Shown: positions 15,175-37,339, counted from the stretch's first letter. The stretch is 37,906 bases of DNA from Sphaerochaetaceae bacterium (GCA_024699225.1 JAILPZ010000028.1:1-37906); one strand, 5' to 3'. Program-made: numbers and translations. The notes: generated by a model from the sequence alone, not told the origin.

Positions 15175-17245
15175 CCTGAGAAACATACCTGTCTCGCACG
15201 TTGCCGGAAACGGCAAGAAGACACTGGCCTCTTACTTTGCCCTGGGGGTTGAGAGTATTTATGACCTTATAAATCTCAGACCCCGCGGCTATGAGGACAG
15301 AACAAGGCGTGTCTGCATAGGGCATCAGGTTCCTGACGGACCGTGGACAAATACAATAGTTCAGGTGCAGGGCAAGAGCTTTTTTGGCAAGGGCCTTAAG
15401 AACGTAAAAGTTACCGTTAAGGATACTGAAAGCGGAGTCAGGGGAGAGCTTCTGGGCTTTAACAGGCCGTATCTGGACAAGACTGTAGTAACAGGTGCCT
15501 TTTACAAGCTTTACGCCTTCCAGATGCCGCAGGCTTTCAGAATGCCGCAGTTCTCAAAGTTTGAATTAACTGCTCTTCCTGATTCATTTGCACTTACTGA
15601 AAATGCAGAAAAGTCTATATCGGGCGGCCTTAAGCCCGTCTATCCTTTAAGCGGAAATCTTACCCAGAACATGGTTAGAAAGCACATGGGCCTGGCCTTC
15701 TCTGATATCCCTGTTCTGGAAAATGACCTGCCTGAGTCTCTCTACGGCAAGTACAAGCTCATTTCCCTTGATAAGGCATACAGGGCACTTCATGCCCCTA
15801 AAAGCGCAGAAGATGTGAGACAGGCTCTGCGTACACTTGGATTCTCTGAGATTTTTTACATGCAGCTTCTGGCCATGAGACGCTCTTCTTCCGACGGAAG
15901 TATCACAAGGCGCTCTGTTACACCGCAGATTTATGAAGCTGAGAAGAAGCTTCTTGAGAGCCTTCCCTTTGAACTTACTGAAGACCAGAAGAAGGTGCTG
16001 CAGGAAATTAGAAAAGACATGAGCGGGGAGAGGAGCATGAACCGCCTCCTGCAGGGAGATGTCGGAAGCGGTAAGACACTGGTGGCTCTGGTTGCAGCAG
16101 TGCATTGCGCAGCCGAAGGGTCTCAGGTTGCCTTCATGGCGCCGACTGAGCTTCTGGCCCGTCAGCACGCTATAAATGCATCCAGGCTGCTTGCTCCGCT
16201 GGGTGTGAATGTGGCATATCTGGACGGTACGGTTACAGGAAAGGCGAGGGCGCTTTTGCTGAAGAATCTCAGGGAGCACAATATTGATCTGGTAATAGGC
16301 ACGCATGCGCTTTTTTCAAAGGATGTTGAGTATGCAAAGCTGGGTTTTGTGATAGTGGACGAGCAGCACCGCTTTGGTGTTGAACAGCGTCGCGCCCTCT
16401 TTGCAAAGGGCCAGAATCCGGATGTGCTCATGATGACTGCAACCCCCATTCCCAGAACCCTTGCGCTTACAATCTACGGGGATCTGAATGTTTCAACCAT
16501 AAAGACCATGCCGGGCGGAAGGCTGCCCGTTAAGACCTATATTGCACCGCCTGAGAAGCGTCAGGCCATGTATGACTCGGTGCATGTGGAGCTTCAGAGG
16601 GGGCACCAGGCCTACTTTGTCTATCCGAGAATAGGAGACGGTGAAGAGGAGGAAGAGAGCTCACTTAAGGATGTAGTTTCCATGTACTCCTACCTCTCTG
16701 AGCGCTACAGTTCGTTCCATGGGGCTTTGATTCACAGCCACCTTCCGGATGATGAGAAGATAAAGATTCTTGAAGACTTTAACAGCGGTAAGATAAGTTT
16801 CCTTGTTTCAACAAGCGTTGTTGAGGTTGGAATTGACGTTCCCAATGCAACATGCATGGTGATAGAGCACGCAGATTTCTTTGGCCTTTCCGCACTTCAC
16901 CAGCTTAGAGGCCGTGTAGGACGAGGAAAGCTTCAGTCCTGGTGCTTTCTTGCCCCGGGGGACAATGTCTCAAAGGACGGCATGAAGCGTCTTGAGGTAT
17001 TAAAGAGTACAAACGACGGTTTTGTAATAGCGGAACAGGATCTTCTTATAAGGGGTCCCGGAGAAATCTCAGGTCTGAGACAGAGTGGATTTACCAACCT
17101 TAAGTTTGTCTCCCTGGACAAGGATTTGAATATGATAGCTGCTGCCAGAGACGAGGTTTCACAGATTCTGGCAACTGACAGCGGACTTCTTGAAGCAGAC
17201 CATGCAGTGCTTAGAAGAGCATTGTTGGAATTACAGTCATTCTGA
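15158..17245 (+). CDS. recG: ATP-dependent DNA helicase RecG
   Basis: A 695-residue branch-migration helicase that remodels stalled forks and Holliday junctions. The N-terminal wedge/OB region (residues about 1-200) is followed by SF2 motor domains. These include QGDVGSGKTLVAL (Walker A, about 297-309), APTELLARQHA, a DEQH box at about 400 (VDEQHRFGVEQR), TATPIPRTLALTI, and motif VI in ALHQLRGRVGRG. The chosen ATG lies inside the end of dnaE. A longer in-frame start at 15116 has no better support. No clear Shine-Dalgarno is seen, so translation is probably coupled to dnaE. Confidence 0.96.
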   Translation: MSILNDLRNIPVSHVAGNGKKTLASYFALGVESIYDLINLRPRGYEDRTRRVCIGHQVPDGPWTNTIVQVQGKSFFGKGLKNVKVTVKDTESGVRGELLGFNRPYLDKTVVTGAFYKLYAFQMPQAFRMPQFSKFELTALPDSFALTENAEKSISGGLKPVYPLSGNLTQNMVRKHMGLAFSDIPVLENDLPESLYGKYKLISLDKAYRALHAPKSAEDVRQALRTLGFSEIFYMQLLAMRRSSSDGSITRRSVTPQIYEAEKKLLESLPFELTEDQKKVLQEIRKDMSGERSMNRLLQGDVGSGKTLVALVAAVHCAAEGSQVAFMAPTELLARQHAINASRLLAPLGVNVAYLDGTVTGKARALLLKNLREHNIDLVIGTHALFSKDVEYAKLGFVIVDEQHRFGVEQRRALFAKGQNPDVLMMTATPIPRTLALTIYGDLNVSTIKTMPGGRLPVKTYIAPPEKRQAMYDSVHVELQRGHQAYFVYPRIGDGEEEEESSLKDVVSMYSYLSERYSSFHGALIHSHLPDDEKIKILEDFNSGKISFLVSTSVVEVGIDVPNATCMVIEHADFFGLSALHQLRGRVGRGKLQSWCFLAPGDNVSKDGMKRLEVLKSTNDGFVIAEQDLLIRGPGEISGLRQSGFTNLKFVSLDKDLNMIAAARDEVSQILATDSGLLEADHAVLRRALLELQSF

Positions 17246-17251
17246 TATAAT
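17222..17251 (+). promoter_or_regulatory. Putative promoter of the molybdenum-hydroxylase-like operon
   Basis: TTGTTG (17222-17227), 18-nt spacer, TATAAT (17246-17251). TG one base before makes it an extended -10 (TGATATAAT). It overlaps the end of recG. The ATG at 17260 is only 8 nt past the -10, so the leader would be 0-3 nt long. Confidence 0.6.
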
Positions 17252-17259
17252 ATTGAGTC

Positions 17260-19302
17260 ATGACGGACCTCTCTCAAGTTTTTACAAACGCAACCTCATT
17301 TAAGGTAGGAGTACTGTACTGTGCAACACGTACAGGACACTTTACTGAAATAAAGAGGGGAGAAGATAATTCAATTACAGTAATTGATTCTTCTGATTTT
17401 GATGAAGAGGTCACCGTTATAGACGATTCATGTCCTGTCTTCCCTAAAGAAGAGGCAGATTATCCCGGACAGCCCCTGCTTGCCGTATTTGGGGACGATC
17501 ATGAGAGTGTAGATTTATACTGCAAGAAAATCCAAGTTGCATTTGACTCAGAGGCTTCTCAGAAAAAACAGGATGAACTGGAAGAGACAGATACCAGCCT
17601 TATCTGGAGCTACGGAGATGCAGACAGTTATTTCTCTGAAAATCCGGACCAGAAATTTCACCATATAAAAAGCACCTTCAATATAGACAGTTACAAGAGC
17701 CCGTCCCTCAGTGACAGAAGAACATATGCCTTCATGGACGGAGATACCCTGAGAATTAAAGTTGCTACCCAGTGGCCGCTTATGATAAAGCGTGAAGTGG
17801 CCAGGGCCATGAATATGGACCCGAAGAAGGTTATAGTCCACACCCAGGAATACTATGCTCCGAATGACCAGCTTTTAAATACTCCGCTTTTCTCTGCCAT
17901 AATTGCAGCAAAGGCCTCTGTAAAGACCTCATCTGCTGTTGTTCTTACAAACGAGATGGCTTCCTGCCAGCCTGCAGTAAAGGCCTATCTTGAGTCTGTG
18001 GTGGATGAGCAGGGAAATCCTCTGGCATTTCTTGCAGATGCAATTATAAATGCAGGTGCCTTTGCTTCATTCAGGTCAGAGCTCTGTCTGGGTCTCTTTG
18101 CCGGTATGGTTCCGCCTTATGATATTAAGGCCATGAAGGCAAGGATAAGGGTTTTCAGAAGCCACAGACCACCAGCCAACATATTCTCAGATGCAGGATA
18201 CTCCCTCGGCCTGAGTCTTCTTGAATCTCACTATGGCAAGGTTGCAAAACTTACCGGTACTTCTCCTGATGTGTGGAGGCTCAGACACCTTGAAAGGACT
18301 GCGCTTCACGACTGCGTAAAGGATTCAACAAGATTTGATTCCCTGGAGAAAACCATAGAAGATGCAGTTAAGGACAGCTGGTTCTCACGTCAGTATGCAG
18401 TTAACAACCAGGATGGAATTAAGCACAGCAGAATAAATCCTTTTATAGATTACTCGCGCGGTATAGGACTTGCCTGCGGAGAGGGAAACCAGGGCTTCTC
18501 CTACTGCTTCAAGCTTCTTAAAGACAGCAGTATTACAGTTACAATGGAGAAGGACAGGAGTGTAACAATCAGATGCGGGGTTGCACCCAACTCAATTATG
18601 CTGCACACCTGGTCCACAATAGTTTCCAAGGTTCTTAACGTAGACCCGTCAGTTGTTCTGTTTGAGGATATAAACGCAGAAGGAATAGTTGATATAGGTC
18701 CGAGTGCACTTTCAAGAGACATAAGGTATGTATCAAGCTGGATCCTTCAGGCAAGTAAAAAGATAAAAGAGAGACTTGATGCCGGAGAGGAACTTCCGGT
18801 TACGGTACAGACTTCAGCTCCCATGCCGGAGAGGCACATAAATACTGATCCTCTTGAAGTGAGAAACGGCTCAGTATTTGATGAGTCTGAATGGAAGGGT
18901 GCAGTTACAGGAACGGATGCAGCAGGCAGTGCTGTTGTGGCTCTTTCAATAGACCCCGTACTCCTTACTCCTAGAATTGACAGAGTCTGGATTTCTCTTG
19001 CAATGGGCAGAATTATAAACAGGCCGCGCTTTTTGAGAAACGTAAGGCAGACGGCTGCCAATATAATATCTGAAATCTGTCCGTCGGCAGATCTTTCATG
19101 CAGAATAGAGCTTGACCTTTCAGAGAAGTCTGACGGGCCGCTTGGCTCAGCTACATCTCTGGTAAGAGGTCTTGTTTCCTCCGCACTTCTCAGTGCACTC
19201 AGCCAGGCCCTTTCCGCATCCGTTACAAATATTCCGGTTACTGCAGAATACATAGCCTCAATTCTTGAGTCTTCAGACAAGGAGGAGCAGAATGCTGATT
19301 AA
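17260..19302 (+). CDS. Xanthine dehydrogenase-family large (molybdopterin-binding) subunit, degenerate
   Basis: A 680-residue protein that aligns by eye along the whole Mo-subunit fold. It has the N-terminal hammerhead-like segment (YCATRTGHF ... YPGQPLLAVFGDD), a central region (VFRSHRPPANIF...SLLESHYGKVAKLTG), the late segment (SALSRDIRYVSSWILQASKK) and the C-terminal LPxT/E-like end (NIPVTAEYIASIL). The usual active-site signatures look lost. RGFG-like text is SDAG, the GQG-x-x-T loop is VAPNSIMLHT, and the GvGE carrying the catalytic Glu is GPLGSAT. It is also shorter than typical (about 750-800). It may have another function, or lack molybdenum catalysis. The next two genes supply Fe-S and FAD subunits. 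Confidence 0.75.
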   Translation: MTDLSQVFTNATSFKVGVLYCATRTGHFTEIKRGEDNSITVIDSSDFDEEVTVIDDSCPVFPKEEADYPGQPLLAVFGDDHESVDLYCKKIQVAFDSEASQKKQDELEETDTSLIWSYGDADSYFSENPDQKFHHIKSTFNIDSYKSPSLSDRRTYAFMDGDTLRIKVATQWPLMIKREVARAMNMDPKKVIVHTQEYYAPNDQLLNTPLFSAIIAAKASVKTSSAVVLTNEMASCQPAVKAYLESVVDEQGNPLAFLADAIINAGAFASFRSELCLGLFAGMVPPYDIKAMKARIRVFRSHRPPANIFSDAGYSLGLSLLESHYGKVAKLTGTSPDVWRLRHLERTALHDCVKDSTRFDSLEKTIEDAVKDSWFSRQYAVNNQDGIKHSRINPFIDYSRGIGLACGEGNQGFSYCFKLLKDSSITVTMEKDRSVTIRCGVAPNSIMLHTWSTIVSKVLNVDPSVVLFEDINAEGIVDIGPSALSRDIRYVSSWILQASKKIKERLDAGEELPVTVQTSAPMPERHINTDPLEVRNGSVFDESEWKGAVTGTDAAGSAVVALSIDPVLLTPRIDRVWISLAMGRIINRPRFLRNVRQTAANIISEICPSADLSCRIELDLSEKSDGPLGSATSLVRGLVSSALLSALSQALSASVTNIPVTAEYIASILESSDKEEQNAD

Positions 19303-19792
19303 ATGCACTATTGACGGCGTAGGGCAGCTTCTGAATGTAAGTGCCGACAAGCCGCTCAGCAAGATACTTCAGGAAAAAATAGAAGACTTTCCGACAAACA
19401 GTGCCTGTCACGGTGCCATGTGCGGAAACTGTGCAGTTCTGCTCAACGGAGAGTGTGTTCTCTCCTGCCTGGTTCCGGCCTACAGACTGAATAATGCAGT
19501 AATACTGACTATCGAAGGGTTCAGAAGAACAAGACCCTGTCATGATATAGAGAGAGCCTACACTGAAACAGGAATAAGACCTTGTGAGCAGTGCTACGCA
19601 TCCAAGACACTCATGATTGAGGGTGTGCTGAACCGCATGGATATAAACAACACCAGAAACAATGTTCTGGATAAAGCCCTTATTGCCAGAGAAATGGGAA
19701 TGAACAGCTGCCGCTGCCTTGAAATGAGGCAGATAGAGACAGTTATAAGGGTGGCTTTGAAGAACAGGAGGAACAGAATTGCCAAGAAATGA
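19292..19792 (+). CDS. 2Fe-2S subunit of a xanthine dehydrogenase-type enzyme
   Basis: A 166-residue electron-transfer subunit with both expected clusters. Plant-ferredoxin-type ligands are Cys39, Cys44, Cys47 and Cys59 (C-x4-C-x2-C-x11-C). The helical second domain has Cys98, Cys101, Cys140 and Cys142 (C-x2-C ... C-R-C). It would carry electrons between the Mo centre and FAD. The ATG at 19292 is chosen over 19265 because GGAGGAG (19281-19287) lies just upstream. It overlaps the large-subunit gene by 11 nt, so the two are cotranslated. Confidence 0.88.
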   Translation: MLIKCTIDGVGQLLNVSADKPLSKILQEKIEDFPTNSACHGAMCGNCAVLLNGECVLSCLVPAYRLNNAVILTIEGFRRTRPCHDIERAYTETGIRPCEQCYASKTLMIEGVLNRMDINNTRNNVLDKALIAREMGMNSCRCLEMRQIETVIRVALKNRRNRIAKK

Positions 19793-20678
19793 CATGGTTT
19801 CAGTCCATTCTCCCAAAACCACCGTTGAACTGATAAATACGGTTGCAAAGAATAAAAACGCCGTTATCTTCGGTGGCGGAACCTATCTCATGTCCAGGGA
19901 CGACTACTACCCCAATGTAAAGGGCAGGGATATTATCCTCACTTCTACCGTGCCTGAACTTTCAAGAGTCTACCACAGCGAAAAGTATATTGAAGCCGGC
20001 TGTGCCGTAACCCTTGAGACGCTGCTGAGTACCGGAAGCTACATAATCAGCCAGCCTCTGGATAACGCCCTCAGGGCTCTTGGCTCATCAACCATCCGCT
20101 CTCAGATGACCATGGGCGGAGCCTTCTGCACCGACAAAATCCGCTTTGCACTCCCGTGTTATCTCTCGGCCATAGGAGCTGAAGTTGAATTCAGGTTCTA
20201 CTCACTGCACGGTCGCGCCAAGAGAGTCACATCCACCTCAAGATGGCTTTCCATCTCCAAGCTGTACGGCAACAACGGAGAATACGTCCTGGAGGACAAT
20301 GCAGTCATGACCCGTGTCCGCATTCCGTCCCAGGAGGGGCTGAGGCAGTTCTACAGAACCCTCGGTTCACCCATGCACGAGAGCCGCAGTTCAGTCATTT
20401 TTGCCCTCACTTTCAACGACAGCAAAGGCTCCATTTCAGACGCCTCGCTGCGCATAGTCCTGCCTGTTGCAGGCTTCTTTGCAAGTGCCGATTTTGACTC
20501 CATGCTTTCGGGTCTCCCGCTCCCCATGACCACAGCCCAGATCAACAGACTTGGTTCTGAGCTTGCCGGCAAACTCAAATCATCATTTCCAAAGGTAACC
20601 AACATTCAGATTGAAAGATCAAGGCGTCTTCTTCAGACAATCCTCTTTGACCTGAATACAGGCTACCTTCAGTTCTAA
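19779..20678 (+). CDS. FAD-binding subunit of a xanthine dehydrogenase-type enzyme (TTG start)
   Basis: A 299-residue protein of the CoxM/XdhB FAD_binding_5 type. FGGGTYLMS (about 31-39) matches the pyrophosphate-binding GG-x-T loop, and TIRSQMTMGGAF (about 105-116) matches the second FAD motif. A C-terminal CO-dehydrogenase flavoprotein-like domain follows. The TTG at 19779 is favoured because AGGAGG (19766-19771) sits 7 nt upstream. The first ATG, at 19794, is 22 nt away. It overlaps the 2Fe-2S gene by 14 nt. Unlike the large subunit, its cofactor motifs are intact. Confidence 0.87.
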   Translation: MPRNDMVSVHSPKTTVELINTVAKNKNAVIFGGGTYLMSRDDYYPNVKGRDIILTSTVPELSRVYHSEKYIEAGCAVTLETLLSTGSYIISQPLDNALRALGSSTIRSQMTMGGAFCTDKIRFALPCYLSAIGAEVEFRFYSLHGRAKRVTSTSRWLSISKLYGNNGEYVLEDNAVMTRVRIPSQEGLRQFYRTLGSPMHESRSSVIFALTFNDSKGSISDASLRIVLPVAGFFASADFDSMLSGLPLPMTTAQINRLGSELAGKLKSSFPKVTNIQIERSRRLLQTILFDLNTGYLQF

Positions 20679-23671: not shown

Positions 23672-23682
23672 GAGAGTTGCGT

Positions 23683-24039
23683 ATGAAGCTGAAGACAAAA
23701 ATCTATCTTGAAGACGAAAACGGGAAATTTATGGGAATAGGTGTTCTGTGGCTTTTGCAGAGCATATTGAAGCTCGGCTCACTGAGGGCTGCAGCGGCAG
23801 AGATAGGTATTTCCTACTCAAAGGCCTATACCATGATTGAGAACCTTGAAGGGGCCCTGGGCCACCCCGTTATAGAGAGAAAGCGCGGAGGAAAGGACAG
23901 AGTTGGAGCTTCTCTTACTCCCTTTGCCGTTTCCTTTATGGATATTTATGACTCTTTTCAGAAAGAGTGCAAAACACTTATGGAAAAGCCTTTTGAGCGT
24001 TTTTCCTCTCTCTATGAGAAGCTGGAGAAAGAAAAATGA
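23683..24039 (+). CDS. ModE-like winged-helix DNA-binding protein (no molybdate domain)
   Basis: A 118-residue protein matching the N-terminal domain of ModE, the molybdate-responsive regulator. LLQSILKLGSLRAAAAEIGI forms the helix-turn-helix, followed by SKAYTMIENLE and RKRGGKDRVGASLTPFA. The molybdate-binding TOBE domains of full ModE are absent. GAGAGAG (23668-23676) supports ATG 23683; TTG 23677 is an alternative. It lies between ligA and pfkA with a 4-nt overlap (ATGA) to the latter. A Mo-related target is possible given the nearby hydroxylase-like operon, but is not shown. Confidence 0.85.
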   Translation: MKLKTKIYLEDENGKFMGIGVLWLLQSILKLGSLRAAAAEIGISYSKAYTMIENLEGALGHPVIERKRGGKDRVGASLTPFAVSFMDIYDSFQKECKTLMEKPFERFSSLYEKLEKEK

Positions 24040-36277: not shown

Positions 36278-37339
36278 ATGTCTAAGGAAAAAAGAAATCT
36301 CATTATAGCCGGAGTGCTTATCGGAGCTGTTTCTGTAGCACTCGTCGCTCTGGGAAACCCAAAGAACATGGGCTTTTGTATTGCCTGTTTTATCAGGGAT
36401 ATAGCCGGTGCTACAAAACTTCACAGTGCAGCTGTTGTACAGTATGTAAGACCTGAGATTATCGGTCTTGTTCTTGGAGCCTGGATTATCAGCATGGCCA
36501 CAGGCGAGTTTAAGAGCCGTGGCGGTTCAAGCCCCATGCTTCGCTTTATAATCGGAGCATTTGTCATGATAGGAGCCCTGGTCTTCCTCGGCTGTCCGTT
36601 CCGCATGATTCTGCGTCTTGCAGGCGGAGACTTAAATGCCCTTGTAGCTCTCTTTGGCTTCATAGCCGGAATTGCCTGCGGCTGTTTCTTCCTTTCCCGT
36701 GGCTTCTCGCTCGGAAGATACTACAAACAGAACAGCCTTGAAGGTCACGCACTTCCTGCAGTAAACATCCTTCTTCTTGTACTTCTTATTGCAGTACCTT
36801 CAGTCTTTGCCTTCTCAGAGAAGGGACCGGGTTCCATGCATGCAGCTATCCTCATCTCTCTTGCAGCAGGCCTTATCGTAGGTATTCTTGCCCAGAAGAC
36901 AAGACTCTGTATGGTGGGCGGAATAAGGGATATTATCCTGGTTAAGGACTACACACTGATCTTCGGATTTATCTTTATCTTTGTAGCCGCCCTTATCGGA
37001 AACCTCATTACAGGCAACTTCAAGCTCGGTTTTGAAGGCCAGCCGGTAGCCCAGACAGCTCATCTGTGGAACTTCCTGGGTATGTTTATAGTAGGTCTCG
37101 GCTCATCCATGCTCGGCGGCTGTCCTTTAAGACAGCTGATTCTTGCCGGGGAGGGCAACTCAGACAGTGCAGTTGCAGTTCTGGGCATGTTCACCGGCGC
37201 AGCTGTAGCCCACAACTTCAAGCTTGTCGGTAACGCAACAGAAAACGGACCTAACACATACGGCAAGGTTGCTGTTATAGCAATTATCATTATCCTGCTT
37301 GCAATCGCAGCAGTCAGAACATTCAAAGAGGAAAAATAA
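36278..37339 (+). CDS. yedE: YedE/YeeE-type selenium-associated membrane transporter
   Basis: A 353-residue protein with about ten transmembrane helices and two repeats of the YeeE/YedE core. The cysteine-bearing motifs are VFLGCPFRMILRLAGGDLNAL (about 104-124) and MLGGCPLRQLILAGEGNSDSA (about 277-297). YedE-type proteins are thought to move sulfur or selenium compounds; the selenium subtype lies next to TusA/YedF and selD, as here. The start follows GGGAG. It heads a four-gene cluster, with the TusA-like ATG right after its stop. Length and neighbours favour the selenium role over thiosulfate uptake. Confidence 0.88.
   Translation: MSKEKRNLIIAGVLIGAVSVALVALGNPKNMGFCIACFIRDIAGATKLHSAAVVQYVRPEIIGLVLGAWIISMATGEFKSRGGSSPMLRFIIGAFVMIGALVFLGCPFRMILRLAGGDLNALVALFGFIAGIACGCFFLSRGFSLGRYYKQNSLEGHALPAVNILLLVLLIAVPSVFAFSEKGPGSMHAAILISLAAGLIVGILAQKTRLCMVGGIRDIILVKDYTLIFGFIFIFVAALIGNLITGNFKLGFEGQPVAQTAHLWNFLGMFIVGLGSSMLGGCPLRQLILAGEGNSDSAVAVLGMFTGAAVAHNFKLVGNATENGPNTYGKVAVIAIIIILLAIAAVRTFKEEK

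Follow-up and report, generated by a model that had tools for sequence, protein, structure and literature searches.

A xanthine dehydrogenase-type gene trio of the class Spirochaetia whose large subunit lacks most molybdopterin and active-site elements

Introduction

What is the task of a gene trio with the architecture of a xanthine dehydrogenase operon when its large subunit appears to lack the molybdopterin site? This question is raised by three overlapping genes at positions 17260-20678 of the window, the whole stretch of 37,906 nucleotides analyzed here. Its source was confirmed as a member of the Sphaerochaetaceae, with Sphaerochaeta halotolerans and Bullifex porci among the named relatives. 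A first-pass annotation had interpreted the trio as a complex that retains its electron-transfer parts but may have a different catalytic centre, bind no molybdopterin or act as a scaffold. Retained electron-transfer parts, a missing molybdopterin site and a possible scaffold role are upheld by the predicted fold, profile alignment and about 145 distinct orthologues; several of the losses and the extent of the locus had been overlooked.

Organization of the Locus

The three genes lie on the plus strand in the order large-FeS-FAD. The first (17260-19302) encodes the 680-residue large subunit, assigned by Pfam, profile alignments, AF2 modeling and Foldseek to the xanthine dehydrogenase fold, with the molybdopterin motifs missing. 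The second (19292-19792, ATG at 19292) encodes the 166-residue 2Fe-2S subunit with eight Cys ligands, and the third (19779-20678) the FAD subunit, 299 residues long from a TTG start at 19779 (alternative ATG at 19794) and carrying FGGGT and TMGGA motifs. The open reading frames are as first annotated, with overlaps of 11 nt (large/FeS) and 14 nt (FeS/FAD). An AGGAGG sequence is found upstream of the FeS start (19280-19285) and another upstream of the FAD TTG (19766-19771).

The extended -10 element reported earlier, TGATATAAT, is present on the plus strand at 17243-17251 (read directly), 8 nt before the large-subunit ATG and overlapping the recG stop codon. It escaped a generic promoter scan because there is no -35. 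Three of four genus members have the element unaltered, and the remaining one differs by a single change (TATACT); the large-subunit transcript would start nearly leaderless.

Pfam identified MoCoBD_1 (9.7e-16), MoCoBD_2 (7.8e-9) and FAD_binding_5 (1.2e-15) in the trio, together with Fer2_3, which is at its cut-off, and Fer2_2, which is under it. No NCBIfam equivalog was reached: the best score of the large subunit was 36 bits, against a cut-off of 790.

The Large Subunit

The xanthine dehydrogenase fold attributed to the large subunit is borne out by the AF2 model (pLDDT 91.1, pTM 0.91). The best 50 PDB matches listed by Foldseek for this model all belong to the molybdenum hydroxylase family (E = 1.8e-39 for 1rm6), with TMq values of 0.77-0.79 for 1rm6 and 1jro, the Rhodobacter capsulatus XdhB chain 1jro_B reaching 0.79. 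Against 17 canonical paralogues, drawn from related genomes, the profile-profile alignment stays colinear for 628 columns (E = 2e-36, probability 99.9, identity 14%), and a profile of 75 orthologues retrieves mammalian aldehyde and xanthine oxidases from the PDB at 2e-31. Phmmer searches of the PDB with the single large and FAD proteins found nothing.

The roles of the family motifs in pterin binding and catalysis are established from xanthine oxidase structures. In the window protein, the GGxFGGK site reads YYAPNDQLLNTP, and YYAPNDQLLNTPL (residues 198-210, 17851-17889) stands there in the profile alignments. SDAG (residues 310-313, 18187-18198) stands at the RGFG site, and GVAPNSIMLHTW (residues 440-451, 18577-18612) at the GQG stretch, the GQG site itself reading VAPNSIMLHT. 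The place of the GxGE motif, with its catalytic Glu, is taken by GPLGSATS (residues 626-633, 19135-19158), and the Gln1194-type segment (GQVxGGxxxG) before it is deleted. The by-eye readings SDAG, VAPNSIMLHT and GPLGSAT thus hold up when the protein is aligned by profile with canonical enzymes and with PDB chains; the replacement of GGxFGGK and the Gln1194-type deletion are additions to that inventory. No pterin loop or catalytic Glu turned up elsewhere in the chain, and only the equivalent of the active-site Gln of the STQ motif survives in the colinear alignment, as Q171 within TQWP (residues 170-173, 17767-17778; all plus strand). We take this residue to be the counterpart of bovine Gln767.

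The same losses are found at the motif columns of the spirochaete orthologues: GQG..T is absent from all 144 distinct large subunits, and RGFG never occurs at its site. GxGE is kept, as GIGE or GLGE, in 13 of the 144, all distant orthologues and not noted in the first-pass annotation; hence, among the catalytic elements, this motif may have disappeared last. Because filtering for lack of GGxFGGK had been applied to the set of 144-147 orthologues, the absence of GGxFGGK cannot be counted from it; syntenic orthologues independently show it missing, likewise the other motif columns. As judged from alignments and the model, the large subunit is a protein that keeps the xanthine dehydrogenase fold and from which most pterin and active-site elements are gone.

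The loop that replaces GGxFGGK is itself conserved, with D203 in 75/75 and P209 in 72/75 orthologues. Such conservation might mean that another catalytic centre, or a ligand, now occupies the former pocket, for instance near D203, which is invariant, and the near-invariant G313/Y314 region. However, neither a new Cys/His cluster nor a known cofactor motif was seen in the conserved columns, and a docking surface would show equal conservation. We consider a new centre improbable.

The FeS and FAD Subunits

The small subunits of the window are as complete as first described. The FeS protein has all eight ligands (C39, C44, C47, C59, C98, C101, C140 and C142), and the FAD protein carries both flavin motifs, FGGGTYLM and TMGGA. 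All eight Cys are kept in 134 of 147 distinct FeS orthologues, and both flavin motifs in most FAD orthologues.

Losses in other lineages had gone unnoticed in the first-pass annotation. Six families (f1, G024; f2, G037; f24, G109; f27, G062; f12, G047; f19, Borrelia-like) have lost the N-terminal Fe-S cluster. In G109, the four C-terminal ligands are kept, G024 and G062 have lost both clusters while keeping the trio, and the Borrelia-like genomes have lost both flavin motifs in addition to the N-terminal Fe-S ligands. Every cofactor site is hence lost somewhere with the trio kept, as would be expected if the whole complex were structural or regulatory everywhere, the flavin and Fe-S clusters serving folding or redox sensing instead of electron transfer. 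A purely structural role needs neither the eight Cys nor the flavin motifs, however, and their retention in most orthologues makes this alternative unlikely, though the most serious of those weighed here.

Distribution and Descent

A homologue is present in 55 of 61 relatives of the window genome, and 260 of 297 genomes of the class Spirochaetia give a profile match. The profile E-value by itself was rejected as an orthologue test: scores of as much as 431 bits are reached by canonical proteins of the XdhA type, and therefore only matches with E<1e-133 were counted. By this threshold, at least 186 of the 297 genomes have an unambiguous copy (carrier list compiled by hand). Candidate family members outside the class were also rejected, as the matches inspected from a search of the phylum (L271-L273, L275) were all canonical. 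In a tree of 30 family members and 17 canonical proteins, whose root is uncertain, as are some long branches, a single branch with support 100/99 divides the two groups.

About 60 loci share the arrangement large-FeS-FAD with all three genes on the same strand. In most of them, ligA lies to one side of the trio, and dnaE, a YggT-like gene and recG lie to the opposite side; the genus of the window differs, with the order dnaE-recG-trio-rsmD-ligA. In about 20 loci (L105, L108 and similar), the same-strand upstream genes include a DegT-type aminotransferase, a FlaA1-type polysaccharide protein and a NusG/LoaP-like factor, all named by eye.

All three genes are under purifying selection, with dN/dS values of 0.04-0.15, several of the pairs being saturated at synonymous sites; the least saturated pair (L086/L093) gives 0.084, 0.147 and 0.042. 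A decaying pseudogene locus of one lineage would explain the missing motifs and nothing beyond. Against open frames, this selection, about 145 distinct orthologues and a conserved gene order, it is hardly credible, and a local pseudogene or artefact is refuted by the selection and the conservation. In the class Spirochaetia, the trio is ancient and has been passed on by vertical descent, and almost every spirochaete sampled keeps it; this class-wide extent and the synteny were missed by the first-pass annotation, as were the presumed orthologues already named in Borrelia.

Supply of Molybdenum Cofactor

MoaC or MoeA is present in 69 of the 186 unambiguous carriers, and both are missing from 117. 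Neither the genome of the window organism, 81% complete, nor G002 of the same genus (96%) yielded MoaA, MoaC or MoeA. MoeA was absent from all 37 family genomes first sampled, in which MoaA and MoaC were found in G009 and G013 only. Five Sphaerochaetaceae (G009, G013, G274, G278 and G307) have a partial pathway in which MoeA is missing and MoaC is present, as is MoaA wherever it was tested.

Canonical molybdenum hydroxylases persist in many trio-bearing genomes without Moco synthesis; therefore, missing Moco genes alone are no proof of a molybdenum-free complex. Hydroxylases with intact motifs are kept, for instance, by Sphaerochaetaceae lacking MoaA, MoaC and MoeA, such as the window's own genome (G000, contig C31, L123 6905-15574) and the one-contig genome G005 (L054). 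One of the hydroxylases on C31 is of the selenium-dependent type (TIGR03313 above cut-off), which fits a putative selenium transporter of the YedE family at 36278-37339 of the window (TIGR04112, 501 bits against a cut-off of 200). Between ligA and pfk, at 23677-24039, the window also encodes a ModE-repressor-like HTH protein (TIGR00637, below cut-off); 30 loci have a homologue in the vicinity of ligA, though most of these genomes have no Moco synthesis.

The persistence of canonical enzymes, the retained STQ Gln and the GxGE motif of some orthologues would be compatible with an unusual hydroxylase that still binds salvaged molybdopterin. However, three pterin and active-site loops are replaced and one segment is deleted throughout. 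In addition, genome G024 (one contig, 99% complete) has the trio, and no other MoCoBD_2 protein, MoaA, MoaC or MoeA was found in it. Salvage is thus very unlikely.

Presumed Orthologues in Borrelia and Treponema

Two Borrelia-like genomes (main contigs of 0.91 and 0.94 Mb) carry the trio 2 kb downstream of ligA, with about 2 kb between ligA and the large subunit (L260 and L261). The matches are clear for the FeS (4e-24, 5e-22) and FAD (3e-22, 7e-22) proteins and weak for the large subunit (2e-5, 5e-9). From their place and the ligA neighbourhood, these trios would correspond to bb0554-0556 of Borrelia burgdorferi. In G109, a single contig of 1.14 Mb of family f24, the trio lies at about 87 kb, a position that fits TP0079-TP0081 of Treponema pallidum, its putative counterpart.

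Going by the title of Phelan 2023, the genes of B. burgdorferi named xanthine dehydrogenase reportedly matter in ticks and mice. The three adjacent genes bb0554-bb0556 have been described as having limited homology to CO dehydrogenase subunits and were recovered in both the TBHP and H2O2 transposon screens (PMC5333916), and bb0554 and bb0555 are listed in a tick screen (PMC6516651). TPASS_0079 and TPASS_0081 are listed as xanthine dehydrogenase (PMC4403809). In the literature searched, which excluded the text of Phelan 2023, no paper joined molybdenum hydroxylase and pseudoenzyme.

Proposed Role

On balance, the trio is probably a molybdenum-free relic of a xanthine dehydrogenase-type operon that was repurposed early in Spirochaetia, as a scaffold combined, in most lineages, with a redox module. 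An operon for a molybdenum subunit, an Fe-S subunit and an FAD subunit would have been taken over early in the class for another task. The large subunit would keep its fold and most likely its subunit contacts; with no molybdopterin pocket built, it would most likely serve as a scaffold or docking subunit and catalyse nothing itself. The flavin/two-cluster module, intact in the window organism and in most relatives, would there shuttle electrons between a soluble donor and a partner; a surviving redox module is proposed because ligand conservation in 134 of 147 FeS orthologues is hard to explain otherwise. In lineages without Fe-S or flavin ligands, only the scaffold role would remain, which suggests that part of the role needs no cofactor. 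The literature on the presumed Borrelia orthologues would place this role under peroxide stress. Sequence and model show the fold, the missing pterin elements, the conservation, the synteny, the selection and the lost cofactor ligands; assembly of the complex, redox activity, scaffold role and partner are inferred.

The molybdenum-free relic is favoured by the four replaced motifs and the deleted segment in a colinear alignment with confirmed fold, by G024 and the 117 of 186 carriers without MoaC and MoeA, by the single branch with conserved order, neighbours and purifying selection, and by the peroxide phenotypes in B. burgdorferi. It is weakened by the kept STQ Gln, by GxGE in 13 of 144 large subunits and by the canonical enzymes in genomes without Moco synthesis, which make an outside Moco supply possible. 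Moreover, ligands kept in most lineages and lost in others mean that two roles must be assumed.

A trio usually labelled an enzyme thus probably does another job. The chances are about even that it represents a core, vertically inherited pseudo-xanthine dehydrogenase of the Spirochaetia, with an indispensable function exerted without molybdenum and, in some lineages, without Fe-S or flavin, and mistaken for xanthine dehydrogenase in Borrelia and Treponema. As regards catalysis, the name given to bb0554-0556 looks wrong. The agents of syphilis and Lyme disease, both major human pathogens, apparently have this gene set under the annotation xanthine dehydrogenase, and this chemistry is very probably absent from it. 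If true, purine oxidation would no longer be the focus, and a non-catalytic or flavin/Fe-S part in stress tolerance would take its place. As a natural series, the family is also exceptionally clear: the metal site of a multi-cofactor enzyme is lost in all members seen, the other sites are lost separately and the complex is kept. The presumed Borrelia orthologues are already known as genes with a phenotype; the class-wide extent, the pterin motifs missing throughout and the separate losses of other cofactor sites appear to be new.

Comparison with Known Systems

The best-scoring canonical relatives of the family profile are the XdhA-type proteins. The canonical trio on contig C31 of the window's own genome (L123 6905-10511) has the same order large-FeS-FAD and the same folds as the window trio but, unlike it, has all motifs intact (GGAFGGK, RGFG, GQG, GQVNG and GMGE). 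The whole-chain fold of the window large subunit is common to R. capsulatus XdhB (1jro), Thauera 4-hydroxybenzoyl-CoA reductase (1rm6) and the mammalian XOR and AOX; at 14-16% identity, the pterin and catalytic elements of these enzymes are missing from the window protein.

Orphan molybdoproteins resemble the family in being XO-family proteins of organisms without a full Moco pathway (PMC6147048). No marking sequence feature was found for those orphans, whereas the spirochaete family is visibly without a pterin site; the main text of that paper does not mention "spirochaet".

The T. pallidum-like trio of G109 has, in comparison with the window trio, lost the N-terminal Fe-S ligands, and GxGE is lost in both. 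The Borrelia-like trio is more diverged from that of the window: the large-subunit match is weak, and neither flavin motif remains, nor do the N-terminal Fe-S ligands. B. burgdorferi bb0554-bb0556 (xdhACB, "putative xanthine dehydrogenase") are likewise three adjacent genes, the presumed counterpart of the Borrelia-like trio; they are named as an enzyme in the literature, whereas the Borrelia-like trio analyzed here shows no sign of a molybdenum site.
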